Shown here one piece after another: positions 1,598-44,048 of a DNA stretch of 64,000 nt. The number at the start of each line of letters is the position of its first letter. The first letter of the stretch is position 1. The notes under the pieces are model-generated. The model saw nothing but the letters and a program-made list of their open reading frames with translations, ran no database searches and was not told the DNA's origin. The position numbers and the translations under genes were made by a program. The stretch comes from Schistocephalus solidus (Eukaryota > Platyhelminthes > Cestoda > Diphyllobothriidea > Diphyllobothriidae): contig WEDG01001283.1 of NCBI GenBank assembly GCA_017591395.1, forward strand, positions 53,384-117,383, in the 5' to 3' direction.

Positions 1598-4500
1598 ATG
1601 ACCAACTTCAGACTGGCACTGCTACTGTCGCTTGCTATCGGTAAGTTTGTCATCTAGACAATCAAATATGCGTCTCATGTATGCTGATGACAAGGTTATG
1701 AAACCTCTGGTACTGATTTGCCTTTCAGTAGTTGGGGTGTTTCTGAAAACAAACTGTCAAAAACGGCTGAAAAATAGAATAACTAAATTTATGTTATGAC
1801 TTACCTTAAACAATGAGTAATAGCTTAACTTGCTGGACTTAATGTATAAAATTTCTAAATATCACATAAAGCCGACTTGCATCCTTGGCGTTTTAAAACA
1901 CATTTTAACTAAAAGTAGATGCTATCACTTTAATTAAGAAAAATCGTGTTGTCAGTAACCAAAGCTTTAGTCAAGCAACCACATCTCTTGAACAGTGGTT
2001 TCATAGCGAATGAGCCAAGATAACACTTGGAGTTTAAGGAACTTTTAAGGATTTGCCCGAGACATATATGAGCAATTCATAGATCTGATAATGTTATATT
2101 TTTCTTAAAATGCAGTTTCCAATATTCCCACAGATACGATGCAATAGTAAATCGCATTAAATAGCGTGCGATATTTTCTGAGATATATAGATCACATAAA
2201 AATATGCAAAGCAATTTGCTTTTTTATAAATTAACCAAAATGTTGGTATTTGACATGTCAACAACCTTCCGGAAAAGATCCTGAGATAACCAAATCCTTC
2301 AGATTTTATGAAAGTGTGCATCTTATAAAAATAATCGGACTTTGCAATACCCGTCCTGACGAAGAATGTAATGTCCAACGAACTGGTGTGTTCGGAATCC
2401 TGCCTTTTGGAAAAACTCCCGATTAAGCCAAAAACCAACGTATTTATAGTAATTGAAGGAGAAAAACATTACAATTGCCCAGTTGAAAGATTTAATAAAG
2501 GCTATTTTAAACCTTCAGTGAACTTAGCACCACCTTTAAGTAACCTACATGACACTGTGAAGCGACTTAAACCGTAACCCCCTATGGTTTTGTTTGTCTG
2601 TTTCAGCCGCGACATACATTAAAGCCGAGGGTTATGAACTGACAAAGGAGGACACCAGAATTATCAATGCTGAAACTGGTTGTGCGGAGTTGAAACACGG
2701 TCGTTCCGTCAGATTTCACGCTATGTCTGCAGACACTCAACCTAGATTTGGAAACGTATTTGTTTTGCTTAGCAGAGCAAGAGCTATTCAGGATTCTTCA
2801 GAAAGTACAATAACAGGACTGTTGACTGATTTTGCATTATGAAGATCAGGAAATTTGCGTTCGTCAGTAGGTTTTTGCAAATTGATTTCGATTATGATTT
2901 TAAGTTATAAAAAGCGCACTCATGGGAATGGCTTTTCTCAAATAATGCTTTTAGTATGAAACCGATGTTACCATAGTCTGCAAATCACACGGCAATATCA
3001 TGCACTTTAAACGCAAAAGGTTAACTAAGGTTGCATTTTATTGTCACAGAGTAGGTTAATAGTACAAAGTTTTTGCTTCCCGGGATGACCGAGGAGAACT
3101 TTGAACTTTGCCGTTTAAGAAAATAAACCGTCATTTTGGCAAATTAGTAGAAAAACACGGATAATTGTTTCATCTTTAAGTTAAATCCAACAGTTAAGGT
3201 TTGTTTATCTCCGTTGCATATATAATGGAGTGAGCATTTGTTTCTATTCTATGGCCATTACAGTCTCCCTTGACTTTCACGGCAATATTAATCTTCCTGT
3301 TCTACTTCTAGCCACCCTGTGGCTGTTAGCGGGGCTCAAAAAGAAATAAGTTCCGTTAGAGGTCAGTGAGTGTTCATCAAGGGGTGCACGTCAATGTTCC
3401 CCGTCTTAAATGGCAAGACAATGAGCCCTTGCATCAATGGTTAGAGCGTTGGATTTCTGATCAACGGGTCGAGGGGTTGTTCCTTAAGTATTGCACAACA
3501 TGGGGTTAAAAAAGACTGACTGACGACGGCCAATAAGATAGAAATGGCCATTCCAATCTCCTTAGACTTTGATGGCAATATTCATCTGCCTATTCTGGTA
3601 CTAGCCGCTATGCAGCTGCTGGCGGGGCGCCAGGGCAGAGTGAAATGAGTGTGTACCGTTGGCGATCGGTAAGCCTTCATCGAGGCACGCAAGGAGTCTA
3701 TACTGTTTCAAAGCATCTATCATGGGATGATTAAAACGCGTCATGATATTATTTTTATCAAATTGGCTCATAACCGCAAACACAAACATCTGCGTAAATT
3801 AATTATTCCTTAAATATACCACTGCAGTTCCGAACAGCCAGGCACTGACCTCATGTTAATGCTTCGAAATAGGTTCTTCATTTATAGGCAAATACGCGCT
3901 TCGGCTTTTATCATAATTCCAACCTTATTGCACTATCTTAAAGCTCGATTTCCAAGTTCAGGCAAGCAGTTTTAGTACGCATTGCGTACCTTTATTGAAG
4001 CTTCTTTCAAAGCCAAAAACTGATGATGGAAATTTTGGGAGAGAGAGAGAGAGCCTGGCTATAAAGCAGCTTACTTTCATGCAAAACACCTAATATTTCA
4101 TTAGCTTAACATACAAAAAACATTTGCGCTTATGGATCAAAAACAACTGGTAGGCAAAATATTAAATGACATATTAGCAGACATGCTTAAAAGTAATTTA
4201 ATCAGTGAAGACACGTTTGTTAGAGCTGCATTATTGATCATCAAAGAAACGAATTAAAAGACAAACTTACAAAATATTGCTACAAATTTTAACTTATTTT
4301 TACACAGTTGTTTTCTGATTGCTTAAATATAAAAAACCAACCGTTTAGTTAGAAAGCGTTACGTTAACCTCATATATTATCTGTGTTTTTTGAAGATAAG
4401 GTATGCATCAAGGTTTCAAACAAATAAAATTCATCTTGCAATTTTTAACAGTTTTTTAAATTCACGTGTCATTTTTAACTCAATCTTCCTTTTTACATAA

Positions 4501-6262: not shown

Positions 6263-6739
6263 CGTTTCAGACTCTCATTCTAACTAAACATCAGAGGCAG
6301 ACACAAATATAGCTAGTTGAGGCCCATTCATTTCAGTAATAATAGAATGCATTTACTATGCATGCACAGGTGTGATCATATCTGGCGGTCGTAATTAATT
6401 CGATTTTCGCTTGCCAGTGTCGCTCCTTCACACTGCTACGGCACGGTCGGCCATTTTTCACCGAAATAATCTCACAGTTTCTCCATACGTTTTCTTCTTT
6501 GTTCGCAACTGCACCACTACCGGTTAACAAGAGCTATGACATTTTTTGGATGAAAAAGAGCTACTGTCATTCACAATGTCATTCATGCCTTGGTTGCTTT
6601 CGATTTGGCGACTAGTAACCTGCCAGAAAGGGCTGTAGATTGAGTCCCAAGGCACAGCATGAGAATCATTTTGCTTGACTTGATCGTAGAGCGCCACTTC
6701 TGTGCTAATATTCCCGATCACATCCGACTAGACAACGAG

Positions 6740-6895
6740 CCCGTGGTTCATTTTTATAGCGTTTGACTCAGTGCCCGAAGCGTGTTGGTTCGAATCCCAG
6801 GTATTTCACCCTTTAGGTTTGGTATGACTGGCAGATGATGGCTATTAAGGCAAAAACGGTCCTTCCGATCTCCCTTGTATTTGTTAGCACTTCGT
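6740..6895 (+). mobile_element. tRNA-derived SINE
   Basis: A tRNA-like head (gagcccgtggttca...tagcgtttgactc) is followed by a perfect B box GGTTCGAATCC at 6787-6797. The body has gcagatgatggctattaagg and gatctcccttgtatttgt, matching the other SINE copies. It is 3'-shortened relative to the 3420 copy. Confidence 0.65.
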
Positions 6896-20430: not shown

Positions 20431-20725
20431 GGATAATTGAATTCAGCGGAAGAATATTGGTTTACATTCAGACTAATCGCAAAATGTTGCATAAGCACTG
20501 TTTTTGATACATATAACTTATGTCTGACGACTAACAATTGTGCCAGATCGAACATTTCGAACAATAAGTTTAGTTTGAGTCTGAGAAACTTCAGTTATTC
20601 TAATATATAATATAGCACAAATATGTCGCCAGTAGGTAACTGGCGGGCGGACAAATGGGATCAAGTGAGATCCTTACTACATTAGTGAGTGTTACGCACT
20701 TGTTTGGCTTGTTTATGCACCTCAC

Positions 20726-20795
20726 TGCACAAGGCATATGATGAACTGATGATCGGTAATGACCGTGAATAGCTGTCTGCGTCTTGCCTGTTGCA
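20726..20795 (+). ncRNA. Hammerhead ribozyme, 232-bp array unit 1 (core damaged)
   Basis: CUGAUGA and the CGGU/ACCG stem II are present. The second core strand reads GAAUAGCUGUC instead of GAAACAGCUGUC, so the conserved A at 15.1 and the stem III symmetry are lost. It is probably inactive. Confidence 0.55.
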
Positions 20796-20956
20796 CTCTT
20801 AGCAACATATTTGTGCTATATATATGGTATGTGTCCTATGACACAACGTTCGATTATCGCCAGTAGGTAACTGGCGGGCGGACAAATGGGATCGAGTGAG
20901 ATCTTTACCACATTAGTGAGTGTTACGCACTTGTTTGGCTTGTTTATGTACCTCAC

Positions 20957-21027
20957 TGCACAAGGCATATGATGTACTGATGATCGGTAATGACCGTGAA
21001 ATAGCTGTCTGCGTCTTGCCTGTTGCA
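20957..21027 (+). ncRNA. Hammerhead ribozyme, 232-bp array unit 2
   Basis: Core CUGAUGA (20977-20983), stem II CGGU-AAUG-ACCG, GAAA (20998-21001), then a six-base near-palindrome UAGCUG ending in cleavage triplet GUC. Stem I is GUA/UGC plus GGCA/UGCC, with outer UGCA/UGCA pairing. Position 10.1/11.1 is U-U rather than the usual G-C. Stem III is minimal, as in PLE and retrozyme hammerheads. Confidence 0.75.
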
Positions 21028-21188
21028 CTCGTAGCAACATATTTGTGCTATATATATGGTATGTGTCCTATGACACAACGTTCGTTTATCGCCAGTAGGT
21101 AACTGGCGGGCGAACAAATGGGATCGAGTGAGATCCTTACCACATTAGTGAGTGTTACGCACTTGTTTGGCTTGTTTATGTACCTCAC

Positions 21189-21260
21189 TGCAAAAAGGCA
21201 TATGATGAACTGATGATCGGTAATGACCGTGAAACAGCTGTCTGCGTCTTGCCTGTTGCA
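21189..21260 (+). ncRNA. Hammerhead ribozyme, 232-bp array unit 3
   Basis: Core CUGAUGA, CGGU/ACCG stem II, GAAA, palindromic CAGCUG stem III and GUC are intact. The stem I base next to the core differs (GAA in place of GUA), giving one mismatch in the inner stem. Confidence 0.72.
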
Positions 21261-21421
21261 CTCTTAGCAACATATTTGTGCTATACATATGGTATGTGTC
21301 CTATGACACAACGTTCGTTTATCGCCAGTAGGTATCTGGCGGGCGGACAAATGGGATCGAGTGAGATCCTTACCACATTAGTGAGTGTTACGCACTTGTT
21401 TGGCTTGTTTATGTACCTCAC

Positions 21422-21492
21422 TGCACAAGGCATATGATGTACTGATGATCGGTAATGACCGTGAAACAGCTGTCTGCGTCTTGCCTGTTGCA
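21422..21492 (+). ncRNA. Hammerhead ribozyme, 232-bp array unit 4
   Basis: This is the best unit: GUA-CUGAUGA, CGGU-AAUG-ACCG, GAAA, CAGCUG and GUC-UGC are all present. Outer stem I pairs UGCACAAGGCA with UGCCUGUUGCA apart from a small internal loop. The stem III palindrome has no loop, so pairing between two copies (a dimer) is the likely active form. Confidence 0.78.
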
Positions 21493-21513
21493 CTCTTAGC
21501 AACATATTTGTGC

Positions 21514-21534
21514 TATATATATATATATATATAT
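21514..21534. repeat. (TA)n microsatellite between the two arrays
   Basis: About ten TA dinucleotides directly join the last 232-bp unit to the first 355-bp unit. A second TA tract closes the 355-bp array on its other side. Confidence 0.95.
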
Positions 21535-21579
21535 GGCAAAGACGTTATACCGTACTTCCGACATAGATACTAGCTAAAA

Positions 21580-21654
21580 GCCCAGACACGTGTTTCGCCG
21601 ATGTTTCTGCTGCTGTATGACACAGCAACGAGGGGTTCGGCTCCTCAGTGGGTC
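21580..21654 (-). ncRNA. Hammerhead ribozyme, 355-bp array unit 1
   Basis: Read on the minus strand: stem I CCCA, core CUGAGGA (21648-21642), stem II GCCG (21641-21638) with CGGC (21600-21597), GAAA (21596-21593), palindromic stem III CACGUG (21592-21587), UC, then stem I UGGG. Stem I extends past a bulged A by GGGG/UUUU-type wobbles. Stem II is capped by a long branch with its own hairpin (GUUGCUG/CAGCAGC). All invariant core bases are present. Confidence 0.82.
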
Positions 21655-21933
21655 CCCTAACGTTCTCTATGCGGTTTCTGGGATATGGACTCCAGAGAAT
21701 AATCAGGTAAATAATTTCTGAAATTATTAAGTGCAGGACATGGAGTCAGGTGATTCGGACATGACATTTTAGGGTCAGACCCGAAATTTCAATGAACATT
21801 TGGGTCGAAGACAATCAACCACTGTGGAATAACCACGTAATGCCCATTCTACAAACAAGTAGTACTACAAGTAGTATGAATCTTATATGGCAAAGACGTT
21901 ATACCGTACTTCCGACATAGATACTAGCTAAAA

Positions 21934-22008
21934 GCCCAGACACGTGTTTCGCCGATGTTTCTGATGCTGTATGATACAGCAACGAGGGGTTCGGCTCCTC
22001 AGTGGGTC
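21934..22008 (-). ncRNA. Hammerhead ribozyme, 355-bp array unit 2
   Basis: The core, stems I-III and GUC are identical to unit 1. The stem II branch hairpin has changes (gatgctgtatgatacagc) that keep an AU-extended pairing. Confidence 0.82.
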
Positions 22009-22288
22009 CCCCAGCGTTCTCTATGCGGTTTCTGGTATATGGACTCCAGAGAATAATCAGGTAAATAATTTCTGAAATTAGTAAGTGCAGGACGTGGAGT
22101 CAGGTGATTCGGACATGACTTTTTTAGGGTCAGACCCGAAATTTCAATGAACATTTGGGTCGAAGACAATCAACCACTGTGGAATAACCACGTAATGCCC
22201 ATTCTACAAACAAGTAGTACTACAAGTAGTATGAATCTTATATGGCAAAGACGTTATACCGTACTTCCGACATAGATACTAGCTAAAA

Positions 22289-22363
22289 GCCCAGACACGT
22301 GTTTCGCCGATGTTTCTGATGCTGTATGATACAGCAACGAGGGGTTCGGCTCCTCAGTGGGTC
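22289..22363 (-). ncRNA. Hammerhead ribozyme, 355-bp array unit 3
   Basis: Same as unit 2 across the ribozyme: all core bases, GCCG/CGGC stem II, CACGUG stem III and CCCA/UGGG stem I are intact. Confidence 0.82.
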
Positions 22364-22643
22364 CCCCAGCGTTCTCTATGCGGTTTCTGGTATATGGACT
22401 CCAGAGAATAATCAGGTAAATAATTTCTGAAATTAGTAAGTGCAGGACGTGGAGTCAGGTGATTCGGACATGACTTTTTTAGGGTCAGACCCGAAATTTC
22501 AATGAACATTTGGGTCGAAGACAATCAACCACTGTGGAATAACCACGTAATGCCCATTCTACAAACAAGTAGTACTACAAGTAGTATGCATCTTATATGG
22601 CAAAGACGTTATACCGTACTTCCGACATAGATACTAGCTAAAA

Positions 22644-22718
22644 GCCCAGACACGTGTTTCACCGATGTTTCTGCTGCTGTATGACACAGCAACGAGGGGT
22701 TCGGCTCCTCAGTAGGTC
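22644..22718 (-). ncRNA. Hammerhead ribozyme, 355-bp array unit 4 (variant)
   Basis: Two changes relative to unit 1: base 11.1 is U (G-U wobble at the stem II base next to the core), and stem I reads CCUA in place of CCCA, leaving a G-U pair. Core strands CUGAGGA and GAAA are intact. Activity is likely to be weaker. Confidence 0.72.
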
Positions 22719-22997
22719 CCCCAGCGTTCTCTATGCGGTTTCTGGTATATGGACTCCAGAGAATAATCAGGTAAATAATTTCTGAAATTATTAAGTGCAG
22801 GACATGGAGTCAGGTGATTCGGACATGACATTTTAGGGTCAGACCCGAAATTTCAATGAACATTTGGGTCGAAGACAATTAACCACTGTGGAATAACCAC
22901 GTAATGCCCATTCTACAAACAAGTAGTACTACAAGTAGTATGCATCTTATATGGCAAAGACGTTATACCGTACTTCCGACATAGATACTAGCTAAAA

Positions 22998-23072
22998 GCC
23001 CAGACACGTGTTTCGCCAATGTTTCTGCTGCTGTATGACACAGCAACGAGGGGTTCGGCTCCTCAGTGGGTC
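22998..23072 (-). ncRNA. Hammerhead ribozyme, 355-bp array unit 5
   Basis: The core is intact. Stem II reads UGGC in place of CGGC, which turns the innermost G-C pair into G-U. Confidence 0.78.
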
Positions 23073-23352
23073 CCCCAGCGTTCTCTATGCGGTTTCTGGT
23101 ATATGGACTCCAGAGAATAATCGGGTTAATAATTTCTGTAATTATTAAGTGCAGGACATGGAGTCAGGTGATTCGGACATGACTTTGTTAGGGTCAGACC
23201 CGAAATTTCAATGAAAATTTGGGTCGAAGACAATCAACCACTGTGGAATAACCACGTAATGCCCATTCTACAAACAAGTAGTACTACAAGTAGTATGAAT
23301 CTTATATGGCAAAGACGTTATACCGTACTTCCGACATCGATACTAGCTTAAA

Positions 23353-23427
23353 GCCCAGACACGTGTTTCGCCGATGTTTCTGCTGCTGTATGATACAGCA
23401 ACGAGAGGTTCGGCTCCTCAGTGGGTC
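23353..23427 (-). ncRNA. Hammerhead ribozyme, 355-bp array unit 6
   Basis: The core and all three stems are intact. One substitution lies in the stem II branch (gagagg in place of gagggg). Confidence 0.8.
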
Positions 23428-23705
23428 CCCCAGCGTTCTCTATGCGGTTTCTGGTATATGGACGCCAGAGAATAATCGGGTAAATAATTTCTGAAATTAT
23501 TAAGTGCAGGACATGGAGTCAGGTGACTCGGACATGACTTTTTTAGGGTCAGAACCCGAAATTTCAATGAACATTTGGGTCGAAGACAATCAACCACTGT
23601 GAATATCACGTAATGCCCATTCTACAAACAAGTAGTACTACAAGTATATGAATCTTATATGGCAAAGACGTTATACCGTACTTCCGACATAGATACTAGC
23701 TAAAA

Positions 23706-23780
23706 GCCCAGACACGTGTTTCGCCGATGTTTCTGCTGCTGTGTGACACAGCAACGAGGGGTTCGGCCCCTCAGTGGGTC
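23706..23780 (-). ncRNA. Hammerhead ribozyme, 355-bp array unit 7 (core mutant)
   Basis: The first core strand reads CUGAGGG: conserved A9 is replaced by G. The rest matches unit 1. It is probably inactive. Confidence 0.65.
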
Positions 23781-24058
23781 CCCCAGCGTTCTCTATGCGG
23801 TTTCTGGTATATGGACTCCAGAGAATAATCCGGTTAATAATTTCTGAAATTATTAAGTGCAGGACATGGAGTCAGGTGATTCGGACATGACTTTTTAGGG
23901 TCAGACCCGAAATTTCACTGAACATTTGGGTCGAAGACAATCAACCACTGTGGAATAACCACGTAATGCCCATTCTACAAACAATTAGTACTACAAGTAG
24001 TATGAATCTTATATGGCAAAGACGTTATACCGTACTTCCGAATAGATACTAGCTAAAA

Positions 24059-24133
24059 GCCCAGACACGTGTTTCGCCGATGTTTCTGCTGCTGTATGAC
24101 ACAGCAACGAGGGGTTCGGCTCCTCAGTGGGTC
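24059..24133 (-). ncRNA. Hammerhead ribozyme, 355-bp array unit 8
   Basis: The ribozyme is intact and identical in core and stems to unit 1, although the unit has a two-base deletion 3' of it on the minus strand and is truncated by the TA tract. Confidence 0.8.
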
Positions 24134-24275
24134 CCCCAGCGTTCTCTATGCGGTTTCTGGTATATGGACTCCAGAGAATAATCAGGTAAATAATTTCTGA
24201 AATTATTAAGTGCAGGACATGGAGTCAGGTGATTCGGACATGACTTTTTAGGGTCAGACCCGAAATTTCATTGAA

Positions 24276-24277
<2 letters not shown>

Positions 24278-24333
<56 letters not shown>
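24278..24333. repeat. (TA)n microsatellite
   Basis: A 56-base run of TA truncates the last 355-bp unit and is followed directly by PLE reverse-transcriptase sequence. A shorter interrupted TA tract lies at 24718-24742 on the other side of that fragment. Confidence 0.95.
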
Positions 24334-24334
<1 letters not shown>

Positions 24335-24344
24335 GAGACTGACC

Positions 24345-24720
24345 AAAAACCCAAACGAACGCATATCATCTTACTCCTAGAACTGTGTCTCAAGACGTTC
24401 TTTACATTCAACGGTCAAGTCTACGATCATAAGAAGGGGACGTCAATTAGCTCACATATGTCTGGACTAATTGCCAAAGCAATTCTGCAGAGGCTTGAGC
24501 AGCTGATCATCAGTTCGTACCCCCCGAAGTTCTGAGCCAGATACGTCGATGACACGTTCGTCATAATCAAGAAGAGTCACTTGCAGGCTTTCAGGGCATT
24601 GTTGAATTTAATCTTTCCCGACATACAGTTTATCATGGAGGAAGAGGTCATCAAGCAGTTACCCTTTCTTGATGTCCATGTTACAAAGCTGGCAGACGGG
24701 AAGATAAAAACAATGGTCTA
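24345..24720 (+). mobile_element. PLE reverse-transcriptase fragment, inactive
   Basis: The plus strand encodes LKTFFTFNGQVYDHKKGTS, ISSHMSGLIAKAILQRLE, then RYVDDTFVII (the RT catalytic YVDD box) and QLPFLDVHVTKLADGK. This is the palm region of a Penelope-like RT. A TGA replaces the Trp expected just before ARYVDD, so the copy is dead although both catalytic Asp residues remain. TA tracts bound it on both sides. Its strand is opposite to the hammerheads of the adjacent 355-bp array. Confidence 0.85.
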
Positions 24721-24942
24721 TATATATATATAAATATATATTGAATTACGGGCATCTTAAGATATTCAATCGAAAATACGAAATTCTTTAAGAAATAATG
24801 CCAACTTAAACTCGTTAATTTTCAACACTGGTTCCCCAGCTACGTCGTCAAACTGCGAGCAGTGTACAGGAACACTTAATTAATTAATCGTGTTTAACAA
24901 AGGCTTCTGAGGTTAAGTGAAATCCGAACAAATACTCGTTGA

Positions 24943-28270: not shown

Positions 28271-28829
28271 GTTCATAGCATCGTGATTGGGTTTTAGATG
28301 AAAATTACACTATCTATTAAGTTCTACGAAAGGTAGTCTTTGTGGCAGGTTGAGAGTGATATAAATGCATTATTGGTCGGTGTTATGAGCTGCTACACGT
28401 TGCGGACAACGTCGACGCAAAAGCAAGGAGCTAGGTACTGTGGCAGTTAGTTCAGTATATGCTGGGTATATGCCTTGTGCATCGGTCCTCGATCCCACAG
28501 GGGACGATTGGGCGCAGAAATGGAACCTGAGGAGTAGGATTGATTTTCCAATAATAAATTGGCTTTCTCGTCCACAAATTATGTAAGCTCAGAGAACGCA
28601 GCTTCTCTACCAAGACATAATATTGACGAAGCAGTGTCTGACCATTTGAACTGAAGTGGTTGATAAAGTCACTTGACGATTGCAGCCGGTGTCGTAGATG
28701 AATTTAAATCAGCTCTGCACTCTAACGGCTGTAAAGAGTTCATGCATCTCCTCATTGCCACAGCCAGCTTTATCAGGGTGGTAGGATACATAGATTGTAT
28801 AACTCCACCGTCAACTATATATTTATATA

Positions 28830-29340
28830 GGATTCACTGCAATTTCTGCATAGTTAACTACATTGAAGAGACCAGGAAACGGGTTCAAACTCGAGTCGGA
28901 AAACACATGAGGGCAGTTAGAAAAATGGACAAATTGTCTTTGGTGGTAGAACACTGCGCAGACTCTGGACACACTTTCGCCATCCAGACTGCAGAAAATC
29001 TGGGTCAGGAAAGTGATCGCGTGGCAAGGGGAAAAAAGGCCGGGCACACGGGAACAACTTCCGTCTATCATTTTGCGACGCTATCTACGGCCTACCAAGC
29101 CCTCCGGACGCAGCTCAATGAACAAAAGAGCCAAAGTGAACATGGACCTTATGTACATCCGAACATCGGTGATTACATGGCGTACATGCACGAAAACGCA
29201 ACGCAACCGAGACCCAAAGAAGGAAAAGTTATCACCTCGGCCAGGTCAACCACTTATCCGGTAGGTGCGAAAACACACGATGGTGCAATCGCTACCAAGA
29301 TAAACTGCCTGAGATGGCAGCTTTGGTCAATGGAATACTG
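28830..29340 (+). mobile_element. PLE GIY-YIG endonuclease C-terminal fragment
   Basis: An open frame ending at 29341 encodes CNFCIVNYIEETRKRVQTRV, GKHMRAVRKMDKLSLVVEHC, ADSGHTFAIQTAENLG, then TGTTSVYHF and AYQALRTQLNEQK. These are the ordered motifs of the PLE endonuclease (C-x2-C, Y-I-G-E-T with the Gly changed to Glu here, SGHTF, AYQALR). The RT part is absent, so the element is 5'-truncated. The copy is unusually open (no stop for about 170 codons), suggesting a fairly young insertion. Confidence 0.85.
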
Positions 29341-29679
29341 AAGACTGACGCCAACATGCGAAAGCCGCCATTCCCCACCCTCCCCCCATCAACCACTGGT
29401 CCGGTGTATAGGCAAAGGATGTTCAATAAGGGTAAAACAATGCCCCCCACCATCCAGCAGTATGTTGACTGAGGATCACATCCCCCAACCCAGTCCCCTC
29501 CTCAACGCAAATTTTAAAGCCTTAATTATCCCGTTTTAACCTTAATGTTTCCACCTATAAATAATGTGAGGCACGGAACAATACTTACCTCTGACGATGA
29601 AATCTTGTTTGGTTTTGAAACCTCAATACCAAAAACTAAGCCACAAACCAAAACCTTACCGAAAACCGCCTTTAACCTT

Positions 29680-34249: not shown

Positions 34250-36540
34250 AAGTAAAGATGACTACTTCACCTCCTGCAAAGCGGGAAAAAAGCCTGATAA
34301 CGCCAATGAATGTCACCTACGAGGACGAAAAATGCATGGTGTGTTTACATTTTTTTGCAGAAATTCCTATTGATGGAGAACGAGATAAGTAACTTGAAAG
34401 GAGAAATATTGCATCTAAAGGAGAAGGTTCATGGTTAACCAGAAAAAAACACCCTTTACAGCGAAATTTCTTACCAACGAAAATACGCATGTAAATATAG
34501 CTTCGTGAAGAAAGCCAAATGTTGAGCTTAAAGACACTGTGTCTTCAGAGCTCCGTAAATCAGTAGACATTACCTTCCTTCGAAAAGGAGATCAAACCAG
34601 ATCATGCACCTTACCACTGTCATCCAGCTCAGACAGAAACAGTAATGTTCTGGATGCACAAATATATGCGGCACCATTGCTGGATGATACAAAAAAAGCG
34701 AAGTTGAAGAGCACGTCGAATTTGAATGACCGAAGACGAAGAATTTGAAGTCATAAAGGGCCAAAAATCTTTCTCAAAAAATGGGTTTGAACTCTAAAAA
34801 AGGCTCGTTCTTACCGATTGATGGTCATACGAATCCTATGTTGGTCATACAGGAGCAAGTGCAGGAAAAATTGGCAGAGTTCCCAAAAAAGGTTTGCAAT
34901 TAATTTTAAAAATCGTTGCTCGTATTGAAGAGAGTCACATCGTCGTAGAATTCTTCCTGAAACTGATGTTTTATCATCAAATTAGAACTCAAAGTAACCA
35001 AACAGACATTTTGACAGAAAACGCAATCTCCTTATTAAAGGGGTTCCAGATTTCACTTCTCTGATTGCAAAGGAAAGGGTAAAACATGACCTCAGTCTTG
35101 TCCAAGTATACTCATATTAAATTATTCAAGATGTCGACAGCGTTACAGTGCACAAAGCATTCCGTTTAAGGAAAGCGGGTATTTCCCATTAACTATTATC
35201 ACCGAGGCCTCTAAAAATCATTAATGAAAATGATGTTTAGGCTTCACACTTCCTGGAACGGAGAATGGCTCTCTGTACTCACACAGTGCTGTGTTTATTC
35301 AGTCGGATTATGAACCCACGAAAAGGCACAAAATGAGGATGCTGAGATGCTGAAGATGAGAACCGAACGGGGGGGGAAACGGCTCCAAAAAAAAGGACGG
35401 GAAAAAAGGTGATTAAGAGGTTTTTCTTGGCGCAGACCCCAAAGAAAATCAAGGCGGGTCTTCGCCGAGACAGAGGACACCTAATACCATGAACCCAACT
35501 GTACATAGCTCGAATAACAACAGGAAGGAGCTCCAGAACTCGATGGACGACCACTCATCAAAACCTCTGCGTGGGTGGGATGGACAGACTCGAGTATTCA
35601 ATTGCATGAAATGCGCAGAAGTCTATATGGAATAGTTATCCAGTCTAAATTGAGATATTTATATACCAATGCTCAGAGTCCCCTATCTAAAGTAGACGAA
35701 TTCAAAGCACTATTTTCAGACTGAACCCAAGATGTCGTTGCCATTACAGAAAAGTGGCTAAAAGCCGAAATCCGTTCGATCGATGGATACCACCTCTTCT
35801 GAAGAGACCGAGAAAAAATAACTGGAGGTGGAGAGGCCGAATATTCAATGACAGGAATCTCGGCAGTCGAACGATTATTATGATTTTCTCTGGATAAAGA
35901 TTCAAAAGGATTGTTCACATAACCTTCAATTCTTGACAATCTACAGACCGCTTATATTCCAGTGCAGCTGATGAGTCCCTCCTCCATTTGCTCAAGGAAG
36001 TAGCAAGTCACCAGGAGGTGCTTATTGCTGGAGATTTCAATGCACCTATAGTTGACTGGGTTAATCTGACAGTTGATGGTTCACCAACTTCCTTCGGCCA
36101 CAAGCTAATGGATCTCACTCTCGACCAACCTCTGGTACAGAAGGTTAACGTACCAACGAGCTTTAGAAAGAACCAGAGAGCAAATTGCCTGGACCTTGTA
36201 TTTACGAAGGACTTCTCTAGCATTGATGAAATGTATTCTATTGCACCCCTCGGTAAGAGTGACCATAGTACGCTGATGTGGGATTACTCACTTTATTCTC
36301 AGCGCCAGAATGGAACGGAATGCAAGCAAAATATATGGAAGGCTGATTTTAACGCGATGAGGAAAGAACTGATGTCTATGAGATGGGATTGTTTGCTTAA
36401 TGGGAATCAAGTGGAAGACTGGCGATCATTTTAGACCGTTTTACTCGATCTGATAGACCACTTTTGTCCAGTGAAAGTGCAAAAAAAGACTAGTCGCCTG
36501 GTCATAATACAGCGGAAGAATGATTCCTTTAGCTCTCAAA
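34250..36540 (+). mobile_element. CR1-like LINE 'A': ORF1 remains and endonuclease, RT missing, inactive
   Basis: From about 35640 the frame gives LRYLYTNAQSPLSKVDEF, VVAITEKWL and, after a frameshift, EVLIAGDFNAPIVDW, CLDLVFTKDFSSIDEM and LGKSDHSTLMWDYSL. These are the ordered motifs of an apurinic-type endonuclease of CR1-like LINEs, including the intact GDFN and SDH motifs. 34250-35600 is frameshifted low-recognition sequence at the ORF1 position, assigned by context only. Homology stops soon after 36500 with no RT. Stops include SD*TQD and F*RDRE. Confidence 0.8.
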
Positions 36541-40429: not shown

Positions 40430-43400
40430 CAAATTAATATGCACGCTATTGACAACACTGCCATTTGTGGAGGCTGTCGAAAACTGTCCATGAAGCTAAA
40501 TCAGCTCGAGGATGAGATAAGGTCAATGGAATCTGTGCTAAAAGGCACCTCTAAAGCAGAAGATGCCACTCAGAAGTTTACTGAGCGACTTAACAGGAGT
40601 AAAACCATTGATATGTGTTCAAAGGGTATACCAACGAAAAACTCGACAGTTTCTACGGCTACCGAACAACAAGAACCAATGGGGCAGGAAAAAAACAGTC
40701 CGCCTAAAACAAAAAAAGCCGTCCAAAACGCAAAACCGACACCAAGAAGGAAAAAGCCAATGGACAACCGACTTCGAGAGATTCGTCAAAAAATGTACAC
40801 ACGGGGCTTTGACGTTTGCCTTGTCCTTCATAGCAAATACTGAGATTCTCACACCAAGCACAATCAGTGGAATTGATTCCAAAACCGAAACTGCCACCTG
40901 CGATTAAAAATTGTCGAACCCATGGAATTCGTCGAAACCCAAAAACCGGATCAAAACCAACACATAGCCAATCAGCATCCGCTCCATCGTCACCAGTGCG
41001 CAATGTGAAACCTTCCCACCTGGTAGTGGAAGACAGCGTCGTAGGTACAAATAATGCCACGGACAGAAAAATAGTTTCAAGAAGAAGAAGAAGAAGAAGA
41101 AGAAGAAGAAGAAGAAGAAGAAGAAGAAGAAGAGGGTTGTTCGTTCGTCGGAATCATGACTTTATTCGTCTGAGCTTTCGGACTATTACTGGAGCCCATC
41201 GTCAGAGATAAAAACGGCTTTCCTAGTCACTTTGTAACCAATAGGGAGTTCAAAGGCGTTTGCCTATCTTTCCCTTAGTAAAACTGAACTAATAATACAC
41301 GGACTACCTGAATCAACATCAACCACTCCCATAGACCGATATTCTGAAGACATGAACCGCTTTAATGTACTCCTGAACAATGTGCTGGAACCTAATACGT
41401 CGATTGAACTGTAAAAGGCTGCCACCTTGAAAAACGGATCGAAAGCCAATCTGAATAAACACGCCCTCTTGACCAGTAGCCAGGAAGCCAGTCACATTCT
41501 GTCTAGACGCTTTAAGTTAAAAAACTCAAACCCTGGTGTTTTTTCAACAGGACCTCTCACCTGCGGAGCAAAACAAATGCCATCAACTTGTCATCGAACT
41601 AAGTAGGCGGCTCAGCGAGGGGGAAACAAATTCAGTTATTTACAACAACCAAGTGATCCATCTTCCATTGTTCTCCCCATGGAGAGGCTCATTCTGGATT
41701 ACCATGAAGTTGGCCCAGTAAACAGGGGCTCGCGCCCGACTGTTAGCACTTTCCGAGCAAACCGCAAACTAACATTCCGGTACACCAATGCACAGAGTAT
41801 ATTATTGAAGCTCGACGAGCTTAAGATTAATGTCTGCGATCCATCTCCAGATATAATTTCCGTAACAGAAACTTTGTTGTCCCAACACGTTGATGACCGA
41901 GAGGTAACTATGGCTGGCTCCCAACTTTTAAGAAAAGCCTTAAAAGAGCGTCAAGGAGGCGGCGTACTCACATACGTGAAAGGCGAACTAACAGTTTTAG
42001 ACAAAATTAATTAATACGCGTCTACTTCCGAGGCGATATGGCTATCCGTAAAAGTGTCAGGTACATCAAGTCTAGATGTCCTAACAGTCTACCGCCTACC
42101 GAGAAGAGACCCCGTAGCCGATGCTTACTAGCTAGAGGAGCTTGAAATGATTGCTACACGGTTGGATATCCTAATCATGGGTGACATCAATGCCCCTCAC
42201 ATCGACTGGAGCTCAACCTGTGCACATAGTTATGTCCTAGCCTTTGACGGTTGTCTTCTGAGCACGAAGCTAAGGCTACTTCTGACACAGCACGTCACTT
42301 TTCCAACCAGGGTGTGCGAAGGACTACAGGCCAATATCATGGACCTAGTTCTCACGAAGTCGCACAACAGCATCGACGAAGTTTCATGACTACCGCCGCT
42401 AGGCAAAAGTGGCCACGTGGTACTGCGATGGAAGTACTCACTATGTTCTATACCAGCAAGACCTACAATCAGAAGGAATATATGGCAAGGTGATTTCGGT
42501 GGAATGAGGGCCGAACTCATGCACACTCAGTGGGAACCTTTATTCTTTTGAAACATAACCTAGGACTGCGAAACGTTCCGGGCCATACTGCACTGGCTCA
42601 TCAAAAATCACTGTCCAATTTTAAGGAAAAAAGGTCCCGCGATGGCTTACGCATGCCTTAAAACTGGAAGTTAACAAAAAGTGGAGATTGTGGAAATAAT
42701 CGCTTACGAACGGAACTCCTGCATCTCTAAAAGGGTACGAAATGCAGAAACATCGGGTCAAGGGCCTTATCTTTAGGATAAGACAGGCTTTCGAAGTTGA
42801 CCTGATGAAACGGGCCACCGTGAACCCGAAACTGTTTTATGGTTACCTCAGGCAGAATACACGGAACAAGGATCCGATTACCCTTCTGAGGACCGTCGAG
42901 GGCATAGACCTTACGTAAGACGGTGCAAATGCTGATTATTTTTCAGAATTTTTTGAGTCTGTTATCACAAAGGAAACGAGATACGATTACTCTACCAATG
43001 GCTTCGAAGTGGATACAATAGTCGAGACTGTTTATTCAACCGAGACACTGTCCTCGAGGAACTTTTGGGGTAAATGGAATCCAAGTCTGCGTGTCCCGAT
43101 GTAGTACCTACCAGGCTGTTGAAAGAGTTAGCAAGAGAGTTGGCAAAACCACTCTTTACGCTTTTTTAATCATCCTTCCAGACCGGAAGTCTACCAGCCG
43201 ACTGGAAATCCGCATGGATAACGCAACTTTATAAGGTTGAAAGCCGGGTCTCTGCAAACAAGTATCAACCGGACAGCCTAACTTAAGTTTGCTGCTACAA
43301 CTAACGCATTTCCTTGAACATACCAATCTGCTATCCGTAGTCACAAATTTGTTCTACTGTTTAGAACGTTGGACTGAAGTGGTCGATAGAGGTAAAACGG

Positions 43401-43915
43401 TGCAGGCAGTTTATATCGACTTCAAAAAGGCTTTTGATAGTGTGCCGCACCACCGCCTTCTTTATAAACGCAACCAAATAGGCGTAAGAGGTAGAATTCT
43501 GACATGGATAGAAAACTTCTTAACTGGTCGCTCACAAATGTGCATATCAGCGACAAACAGTCCACTAAAGTTGAGGTTGAGAGTGGTGTTCCCCAAGGCT
43601 CTGTTCTCGGCCCTATTTTGTTCATTGTCTACATCAACGATTGTGCCAACGAACTGGACTGCAATATTGCCATGTTTGCCGATAATATCACACTTTGGCG
43701 CGTCATTCAAACTGCGGCTGACGAGGAGAACTTGCAGGCGAACTTACATCGACTCCAGAAATGTTCAAATGACTGGCTCTCGCCGTTTAATGATAGCAAG
43801 TGCTACATCATACAATTCGGGAAAAGCAATCCTTCGAACCGTACGGTGTACAGTCTGAATGGCATTCCATTGCAAGAAGTGGATGTCTAAAAGGACCTTG
43901 AGTCGATCCGTTTCG
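40430..43915 (+). mobile_element. CR1-like LINE 'B', nearly full length, inactive
   Basis: ORF1 region (40430-41690): CGGC-type cysteines with a coiled-coil-like segment (LSMKLNQLEDEIRSMES), a basic stretch, then IIHGLPEST, SRRFKLKNSNPGVFF and ELSRRLSEGE. ORF2 (41750-43915): endonuclease words TNAQSILLKLDEL, VTETLL, IMGDINAPHIDW and LGKSGHVVLRW, where the usual catalytic SDH reads SGH. The RT has VYIDFKKAFDSVPHH, ESGVPQGSVLGPILF and MFADNITLW, where the usual FADD reads FADN. Several frameshifts and stops break the frames. Element order and length fit a complete CR1-like LINE of about 3.5 kb. It ends just before a TA microsatellite. Confidence 0.88.
41080..41134 (+). repeat. (AAG)n microsatellite within LINE B ORF1
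   Basis: About 18 AAG units encode a poly-Arg/Lys/Glu run depending on frame. It is followed by about 80 bases (41137-41215) that do not fit ORF1, which resumes near 41290. Microsatellite and following block look like an insertion. Confidence 0.9.
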
Positions 43916-43936: not shown

Positions 43937-43974
<38 letters not shown>

Positions 43975-43977
43975 ACG

Positions 43978-44048
<71 letters not shown>
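43920..44048. repeat. (TA)n microsatellites
   Basis: Two long TA runs (about 43944-43968 and 43980-44048) are separated by aaaaaagacg. They follow the 3' end of LINE B. Confidence 0.95.

Follow-up and report, generated by a model that had tools for sequence, protein, structure and literature searches.

Predicted hammerhead retrozymes of Schistocephalus solidus have insertion ends like those of sampled Penelope-like elements of the same genome

Introduction

The Sm-alpha repeat of Schistosoma is a flatworm tandem hammerhead repeat. Metazoan non-LTR retrozymes have been described as dispersed arrays of 150-450 bp units, each with a type I hammerhead, a GC content below 50% and no long reading frame, in genomes that also contain Penelope-like elements (PLEs) (Cervera and de la Pena 2020, PMC7229834). 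According to that paper, most invertebrate retrozyme hammerheads self-cleave efficiently, an axolotl hammerhead with a stem III of two base pairs and a tetraloop is similar to the invertebrate ones, and PLEs were proposed as the movers of animal retrozymes from their co-occurrence. A 2020 review stated that no motif in the repeats had revealed the helper element (PMC7761336). For PLEs themselves, an Anolis enzyme has been reported, in vitro, to cut both strands of AT-rich DNA and to begin reverse transcription from two sites within the RNA, and its start site is said to be non-homologous to the cleaved DNA (PMC11167929).

Here we analysed a window of 64,000 nucleotides of S. solidus DNA, meaning the whole stretch at its full length, together with related copies elsewhere in the genome. 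The retrozyme kind is already known, and the new part is the location of the copy ends. A literature search by titles, abstracts and cited papers, within the text of these that was available, found no published report of this insertion-end signature.

Results and Discussion

Two adjoining hammerhead arrays on opposite strands

The initial annotation described a 355-bp tandem array on the minus strand, every unit of which carries a type I hammerhead, and this was borne out. Tandem Repeats Finder gave 21530-24279 with a period of 355, 7.8 copies and 97% matches, and cutting the array at the predicted cleavage site yielded eight hammerhead copies at a spacing of 353-355 bp. A second hammerhead array (232 bp, opposite strand), absent from that annotation, adjoins the first; the evidence on integration lies outside positions 21535..24277, which the annotation covered. 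The features of the window are as follows, with unit positions (+n) counted after the hammerhead cleavage site.

20626..21522, plus strand: second putative retrozyme array, 232-bp unit, 3.9 copies; 3' end at unit +48, in a TA tract
20971..21015, plus strand: predicted type I hammerhead (232-bp family), stem II with U-U at its base; predicted cleavage after 21009
21436..21480, plus strand: predicted type I hammerhead of the 232-bp family; predicted cleavage after 21474
21514..21533, unstranded: TA tract where the 355-bp and 232-bp arrays meet tail-to-tail by their 3' ends
21530..24279, minus strand: putative 355-bp retrozyme array, 7.8 units; sense 3' end (unit +55) at the low-coordinate end, in a TA tract; 5' end against (TA)27
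21581..21652, minus strand: predicted type I hammerhead, unit u7; descriptor and relaxed RF00163 search
21935..22006, minus strand: the same, unit u6; descriptor and relaxed RF00163 search
22290..22361, minus strand: the same, unit u5; descriptor and relaxed RF00163 search
22645..22716, minus strand: the same, unit u4; pair-preserving wobbles in stems I and II; not among the listed RF00163 matches
22999..23070, minus strand: the same, unit u3; one wobble, in stem II
23354..23425, minus strand: the same, unit u2; descriptor and relaxed RF00163 search
23707..23778, minus strand: hammerhead of unit u1; core mutated, A9 to G
24060..24131, minus strand: predicted type I hammerhead, unit u0; descriptor; predicted cleavage between 24064 and 24063; RF00163 22.8 bits, cut-off 34
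24279..24332, unstranded: (TA)27 separating the 355-bp array, at its 5' end, from one end of the PLE fragment
24335..24718, plus strand: decayed fragment of a PLE reverse transcriptase with the motif YVDDTFVI, flanked on either side by a TA tract
24719..24732, unstranded: TA tract at the far end of the PLE fragment
35937-36434: endonuclease-reverse transcriptase (RT) sequence
43241-43858: RVT_1 sequence

A descriptor requiring the core strands CUGANGA and GAAA, three stems and an NUH triplet was passed by seven of the eight 355-bp units, all with an invariant core and closed stems. It gave nine hits in the window, all inside the two arrays, against a chance expectation of 0.00875 hits per 64 kb on both strands (800 first-order Markov sequences). 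The annotation had counted six unchanged units, one with a wobble and one with a core mutation; the single core mutation stood, and wobbles were found in two copies, 22645-22716 having two and 22999-23070 one. In the 232-bp array, two of four units passed the full descriptor. Some units of the two arrays carried damaged hammerheads.

Judged by Rfam's cut-off, the condition that the annotation had named as refuting, the lack of a covariance-model hit above threshold, applies, as no match anywhere in the window reached an Rfam gathering score. In a relaxed search of 4.2 kb, RF00163 (Hammerhead_1) matched six of the eight 355-bp units at 22.3-22.8 bits (E 0.036-0.054) compared with the cut-off of 34, and no unit of the 232-bp array even at E up to 10. 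The gathering cut-off belongs to the library and is not a mechanistic criterion, and the 355-bp hammerhead may plausibly score low on account of a 37-nt insertion in stem II. We hold that the sequence evidence for a probable hammerhead outweighs the sub-cut-off score. Stem III (ACACGUGU) had been taken as loopless, so that activity would need a dimer. However, a second reading is possible, with two base pairs and the palindrome ACGU as a closing tetraloop, and dimer-only activity is thus not forced.

Judged from their sequences, both arrays consist of non-autonomous metazoan (non-LTR) retrozymes, the 355-bp units forming one family and the 232-bp units another. Both have a hammerhead unit within 150-450 bp, GC below 50% (43.4% and 44.0%, respectively) and dispersed, non-coding copies in a genome with PLEs, and the kinship of the 355-bp array with retrozymes and PLE hammerheads that had been suggested is supported. 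The likeness to the retrozymes of PMC7229834 is one of design, and the available text of that paper mentions neither fixed internal 3' ends in (TA)n nor head-to-head pairs. The two families themselves share nothing beyond a 9-nt word. Axolotl HHR_Amex2 (PMC7229834) shares with the 232 family a basal U-U mismatch in stem II, and a stem III of two base pairs with a tetraloop is possible in both families; it differs in coming from a vertebrate and in its 353-bp unit. The units are not PLEs, because the longest stop-free runs of 66 aa (355-bp unit) and 83 aa (232-bp unit) leave no room for an RT and a GIY-YIG endonuclease.

Most retrozyme 3' ends lie at two fixed internal sites in TA tracts

Among loci that are mostly the best matches to the window units and not a random sample, full-length 355-family matches outside the window array were 95-98% identical and lay on 25 further contigs (26 listed contigs in all), and the 232 family was present on at least 36 contigs among the matches listed. 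In 179 full 355-family units, taken from 26 of 27 merged segments, the 13 core positions varied in 0.26% of cells compared with 1.02% outside the hammerhead, and 161 units kept the intact core and stem III pattern.

The 3' ends of the 355 family were concentrated at unit positions 54/55 (15 of 28 visible ends) and 237/238 (8 of 28), and all 23 of these fixed-site ends (+55, +238) ran into (TA)n; the other five lay elsewhere. The 232 family behaved alike, with ten of 18 visible 3' ends at +48 and five at +173, all 15 against TA, and three elsewhere. For the 355 family, 26 5' ends were visible, and these were scattered over unit positions 4-336; 23 abutted TA or an inverted copy and three neither, and nine of the 12 outside head-to-head joints lay against TA. 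TA on both sides of the retrozyme copies would hide any target-site duplication. Neither 3' site of the 355 family coincides with the cleavage site, which implies that the RNA template would run across it. At the 3' sites of the retrozymes there is a short A/T identity with the TA target, whereas the Anolis start site is described in PMC11167929 as non-homologous to the cleaved DNA. Since the ATATA at 254-258 of the 355-bp unit was used by none of the 28 3' ends, the choice of site does not depend on TA microhomology alone, and pure microhomology as the cause of the fixed ends is disfavoured.

Inverted copies were joined head-to-head in both families. Four pairs of the 232 family joined a +48 arm to a +173 arm. 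This one-site-per-arm pairing was seen in only one of seven 355-family pairs (C211); C4163 and C852 had the same site on both arms, C852 with TA between them, and the remaining four had at least one arm that was irregular or cut off. The longest 355-family array with both ends visible comprised 25.7 units, and another had at least 28. Fifteen of the 20 arrays of this family with at least three units were more homogeneous inside than the between-array mean of 1.06%, the lowest variation being 0.09% in 28 units and 0.14% in 25 units. The other five had internal variation (1.6-2.8%) above this between-array mean, and the within-array means averaged 0.91%, only slightly below it.

Sampled Penelope-like elements of the same genome end in the same way

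We take the YVDDTFVI motif to mark the fragment at 24335..24718 as a PLE. A second basis for this assignment is its 51-57% identity to a frame beside another array (L024); two pieces of the fragment gave no Pfam match. A PLE endonuclease in the genome is up to 96% identical to an S. solidus protein, in support of the annotation's description of the repeat as cestode-like. From 20 PLE copies sampled by endonuclease match, and not by TA, 16 showed a terminus, at +42 (ten copies) or +80 to +82 (six copies) after their own hammerhead, and all 16 termini ran into (TA)n. Two further copies continue into shared sequence that we take for the next tandem unit, and in two the region is missing in the expected orientation. 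Where PLE copies among the 150 scored lay close together on opposite strands, a hand count gave nine of nine pairs as head-to-head; in C2028, the only pair with its outer ends read, one arm ends at +42, the other falls short of the second site by about 5 nt, and both ends lie in TA.

Work on Anolis Poseidon PAc (PMC11167929) and Adineta Penelope (PMC3846280) likewise describes two internal RT starts downstream of the hammerhead, an AT-rich target with both strands cut, and tandem and head-to-head copies; internal fixed 3' sites, AT-rich surroundings and head-to-head copies are the PLE-like insertion features of the retrozymes. In contrast to the retrozyme units, these hammerhead PLEs encode RT and endonuclease, and their optional tail is 30-40 nt compared with sites 125-183 nt apart in the retrozymes. 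The two S. solidus PLE sites are about 40 nt apart, compared with 183 nt in the 355 family and 125 nt in the 232 family. No shared enzyme-binding element was found, because the tails of the 355-bp, 232-bp and PLE sequences have only short words in common. An origin of the retrozymes as internally deleted PLEs is disfavoured, as the units have no similarity to the 136-nt PLE tail, the one PLE part that was compared.

A model for insertion, and its alternatives

Taken as a whole, the explanation we favour, and regard as probable, is that the retrozymes spread via hammerhead-made circles that are copied by a PLE RT-endonuclease through internal target-primed reverse transcription in (TA)n. An array would be transcribed, its hammerheads would cut the transcript into unit-length RNAs, and these would be ligated into circles. 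The PLE enzyme would nick a (TA)n tract and start copying at one of two fixed internal A/U-rich RNA sites. By running round the circle it would leave a tandem array whose 3' end is fixed and whose 5' end is arbitrary, and where both strands of the self-complementary TA target primed, a head-to-head inverted pair. A more specific version, in which the retrozymes are parasites of the Penelope machinery whose circular RNA is often copied bidirectionally into (TA)n from two initiation sites per RNA, one per nicked strand in the 232 family and perhaps freely in the 355 family, we regard as evenly balanced. In that version the hammerhead would serve to supply an endless template, which would explain why the 3' end, and not the 5' end, is fixed in arrays of up to 25.7 units with both ends visible; if true, it suggests why a self-cutting ribozyme pays for a small retroelement. 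The insertion ends supply a helper signature that is alike in two unrelated retrozyme families and in the PLEs sampled from the same genome. Ends in TA-repeat DNA like those of the sampled PLEs point to the enzyme that probably moves the retrozymes, and the exact predicted initiation sites are +55/+238 (355 family) and +48/+173 (232 family).

Tandem structure and some homogenisation would also be expected of an ordinary satellite, in which unequal crossing-over had multiplied an old hammerhead repeat locally and the TA ends were incidental. Local amplification also gives within-array homogeneity, and later expansion could account in part for the arrays of 25.7 and at least 28 units. However, crossing-over alone would not be expected to produce dispersal over 26 contigs, 3' ends at two positions (23 of 28), scattered 5' ends and head-to-head pairs, and we find this account scarcely credible. 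Capture at the DNA level, with repeat DNA or cDNA circles end-joined into breakage-prone TA tracts, would fit the short A/T identity at the junctions, and TA repeats are fragile sites. The unused ATATA and the combination of fixed 3' with scattered 5' ends argue instead for strand-specific initiation, which makes such capture very improbable.

The TA tracts might not be targets, and might be tails made by the polymerase or grown after insertion, since (TA)n can expand by slippage and TA adjoins 23 of 28 3' ends compared with only nine of 26 5' ends outside head-to-head joints. Against this, nine of the 12 5' ends that are not head-to-head lie against TA, and the two arrays and the PLE fragment in the window are joined through TA tracts; we give this reading a small chance. 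It would alter the account of the target and not that of the fixed sites. Another TA-preferring non-LTR retrotransposon might have mobilised the repeats in place of PLEs, and one of the two other RT-related sequences in the window (35937-36434 and 43241-43858) breaks off at a TA tract. The sampled PLEs, however, have all three features, namely two internal 3' sites after the hammerhead, terminal TA and head-to-head pairs, and a different helper therefore appears improbable to us. Copying by the PLE enzyme, with the TA tracts as its likely targets, is the reading that we prefer.

Other matches and a third family

A bare-core scan of the genome with one fixed spacing, which cannot match either family, gave 72 hits compared with 80 in the reversed control. 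Rfam matches other than hammerhead and tRNA (snoRNA, miRNA and viral UTR models) fell below their own cut-offs and were read as TA or inverted-repeat matches. A third family, tRNA-like and of 305 bp, had 34 visible 3' ends, with seven at unit position 153, eight within +28 to +42 and 19 elsewhere, many of them in old copies. Among known repeats, this family may most resemble the Schistosoma Sm-alpha hammerhead satellite.

Two adjoining hammerhead arrays in the window

The tandem array of a 355-bp unit that the initial annotation placed on the minus strand is present, and it adjoins a second hammerhead-bearing array with a 232-bp unit.

20626-21522, plus strand: 232-bp array with the second hammerhead
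21514-21533: shared TA tract in which the two arrays join tail-to-tail
21530-24279, minus strand: 355-bp tandem array

At its other end the 355-bp array lies against (TA)27, followed by a decayed reverse-transcriptase fragment of a Penelope-like element (PLE) and then a TA tract. By eye, each array has short inverted repeats at its 5' end (20600-20626 and 24260-24285), possibly reflecting snap-back synthesis.

Using the predicted cleavage site as the cutting point gave eight hammerhead copies spaced 353-355 bp apart, and seven of the eight units matched a strict descriptor of the core and all three stems, which has a chance rate of 0.00875 hits per 64 kb (800 Markov sequences). A hammerhead had been claimed for every unit; eight copies were indeed found, although one carries an A9 to G change. 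The original tally of six unchanged cores, one wobble and one core mutation is thus close: seven units pass the descriptor, and two of these have stem changes that retain pairing through G-U. In the covariance-model search proposed as a check, six of the eight units reached 22.3-22.8 bits, all below the cut-off of 34 for the Rfam type I hammerhead model. When folded as a single strand, the 355-bp ribozyme formed the expected stems I and II; z-scores were modest, at -1.68 for the ribozyme and -1.36 for the unit.

The 232-bp hammerhead comprises CUGAUGA, a stem II with a basal U-U, GAAA, a stretch that reads CAGCUG or UAGCUG, and a cleavage site at UC. Two of the four copies in the array matched the descriptor; copy 1 is missing one A of GAAA, and stem I of copy 3 contains an A-G mismatch. 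Folding z-scores of two ribozyme variants were -1.46 and -0.49.

Type I hammerhead non-LTR retrozymes occur in many animals, including platyhelminths (PMC7229834), and the 355-bp array is of this same known kind, in line with the kinship to retrozymes suggested at the outset.

Genome copies of the two families

We searched 603.7 Mb in 8019 contigs. The 355-bp unit gave 1057 first-look candidates, the best 40 of which yielded 141 matches on 26 contigs; full-length matches among these were 95-100% identical (95-98% beyond the array of the window). For the 232-bp unit, the best 40 of 758 candidates yielded 327 matches, those listed lying on at least 36 contigs at 98-100% identity. Copy numbers of both families are lower bounds skewed to the best matches. 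The families are neighbours not only in the window but in contigs C606, C2114, C3404 and C3476 as well.

Across 179 full 355-bp units, the 13 core positions were off the majority in 0.26% of cells, compared with 1.02% outside the hammerhead, and in 161 units the core and the stem III pattern were both intact. This may reflect constraint on the hammerhead, a reading that is suggestive only because of shared descent. Stem I positions 282 and 286 were off the majority in 22-24% of units, far more than the rest of the hammerhead.

Retrozyme copies end at two preferred sites against TA

Fetched stretches were merged into 27 segments from 26 contigs, holding 37 stretches of 355-bp array. Counted from the predicted cleavage site, 15 of the 28 visible 3' ends fell at 54/55 (site A) and eight at 237/238 (site B), with five elsewhere (168, 318, 226, 197 and 9). 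Since position 1 is the first base past the cleavage site, neither site is the ribozyme cut. TA lay directly beyond all 23 regular ends, against a background of TA-like 20-mers of 86/59,600 positions in the remainder of the window and 1/24,016 in eight fetched loci (L001-L008). A further ATATA, at 254-258 of the unit, was used by none of the 28 visible 3' ends.

The 26 visible 5' ends were scattered over positions 4 to 336: 14 formed head-to-head joints (seven pairs), nine lay against TA and three did neither. No single rule governed the sites of the paired arms. Pair C211 had one arm at each site, C4163 both arms at site B, and C852 both at site A, separated by TA; C1526, C3352, C3404 and C553 each had an arm that was irregular or cut off.

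The 232-bp family likewise had two main 3' ends, at +48 (10 of 18 stretches) and +173 (five), with three elsewhere (160, 182 and 83), and TA adjoined all 15 ends at +48 or +173. Of the head-to-head pairs, four combined an arm ending at +48 with one ending at +173, and two more were +48/+160 and +48/+182.

At 43943-44048 of the window, beside a truncated RVT_1 element, TA tracts flank the 10-base AAAAAGACGT, which resembles a remnant of a 355-bp site-A tail.

Sampled Penelope-like elements share the insertion signature

PLEs have been suggested as retrozyme helpers (PMC7229834), and a review states that no conserved motif had indicated a helper (PMC7761336). A PLE endonuclease of the genome reaches 96% identity to a Schistocephalus solidus protein, which makes that tapeworm or a close relative the probable source, judged on a mobile element and not on a host gene. 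With the Schistocephalus endonuclease as query there were 23,498 first-look candidates, of which the best 150 were scored. We read 651 bases downstream of 20 of them, almost all top-ranked. A terminus was visible in 16, at +42 after GAAACGUC in 10 and at +80 to +82 in six, and TA stood at all 16, the tract in L100 being short and interrupted. One of the 16, L098, has a mutated hammerhead motif, and its site was read off the tail sequence. L089 and L097 had no terminus and continue into common sequence, taken for the next tandem unit; in L096 and L099 no such region was present in the orientation expected. The copy in L025, of another PLE type, terminates some 77 nt past its own GAAACGUC, likewise in TA; having been picked up next to a retrozyme, it does not count as an independent sample.

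All nine close opposite-strand PLE pairs counted by hand among the 150 were head-to-head. In C2028, the sole pair with its outer ends read, one arm stopped at +42 and the other roughly 5 nt before the second site, and both termini lay in TA. In a rotifer, Penelope copies have been reported with inverted flanks and, optionally, a tail (PMC3846280). An Anolis PLE enzyme has two internal RNA start sites and cuts both DNA strands with a preference for AT-rich DNA (PMC11167929).

This signature common to the retrozymes and PLEs of the genome, computed on a modest, partly biased sample of these elements only, is the valuable part of the analysis, and it reduces the helper question to a single bench assay.

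A decayed PLE GIY-YIG endonuclease piece also lies in the window (28811-29329, plus strand), with a hammerhead-like motif with a CUGACGA core downstream, near 29588-29625.

The RNA template and the proposed role of the ribozyme

Because synthesis begins beyond the cleavage site and the array crosses that site, the RNA template is not a simple cut monomer. Variation within 355-bp arrays of at least three units was below the between-array mean of 1.06% in 15 of 20; it fell as low as 0.09% in an array of 28 units and 0.14% in one of 25, and averaging the within-array means gave 0.91%. The other five (C1071, C723, C852, C191 and C3352) varied internally by 1.6-2.8%. Repeated copying of one circular RNA would give homogeneous arrays, and circle formation is the proposed use of the retrozyme hammerhead. 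A multimer transcribed from an already homogeneous array would too, as would later local amplification, so we infer a circular template with moderate strength.

In the 17 PLE copies of L082-L101 with GAAACGUC, the core reads CCGACGA in 16 and ACGACGA in one in place of CUGACGA, so this ribozyme may be weak or protein-assisted. The Anolis study reports hammerhead cleavage only with protein present, and in vitro insertion that did not require this cleavage (PMC11167929); the latter weakens any claim that PLEs need the ribozyme.

A third hammerhead family and other observations

A third family of hammerhead tandem repeats, about 305 bp in unit length and including a tRNA-like segment, occurs in L013, L036, L038, L060, L099 and other loci, and old fragments of it lie at 3414-3571 and 6708-6884 of the window. 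The segment scored 31.0 bits with the Rfam tRNA model in L060 (cut-off 29), and ARAGORN called no tRNA in it. Seven of 34 visible 3' ends fell at unit position 153 and eight in +28 to +42, mostly against TA. On the minus strand of the window, 17914-18273 matches a sodium/bile acid symporter in an exon-like manner (Pfam SBF, E 1.5e-10).
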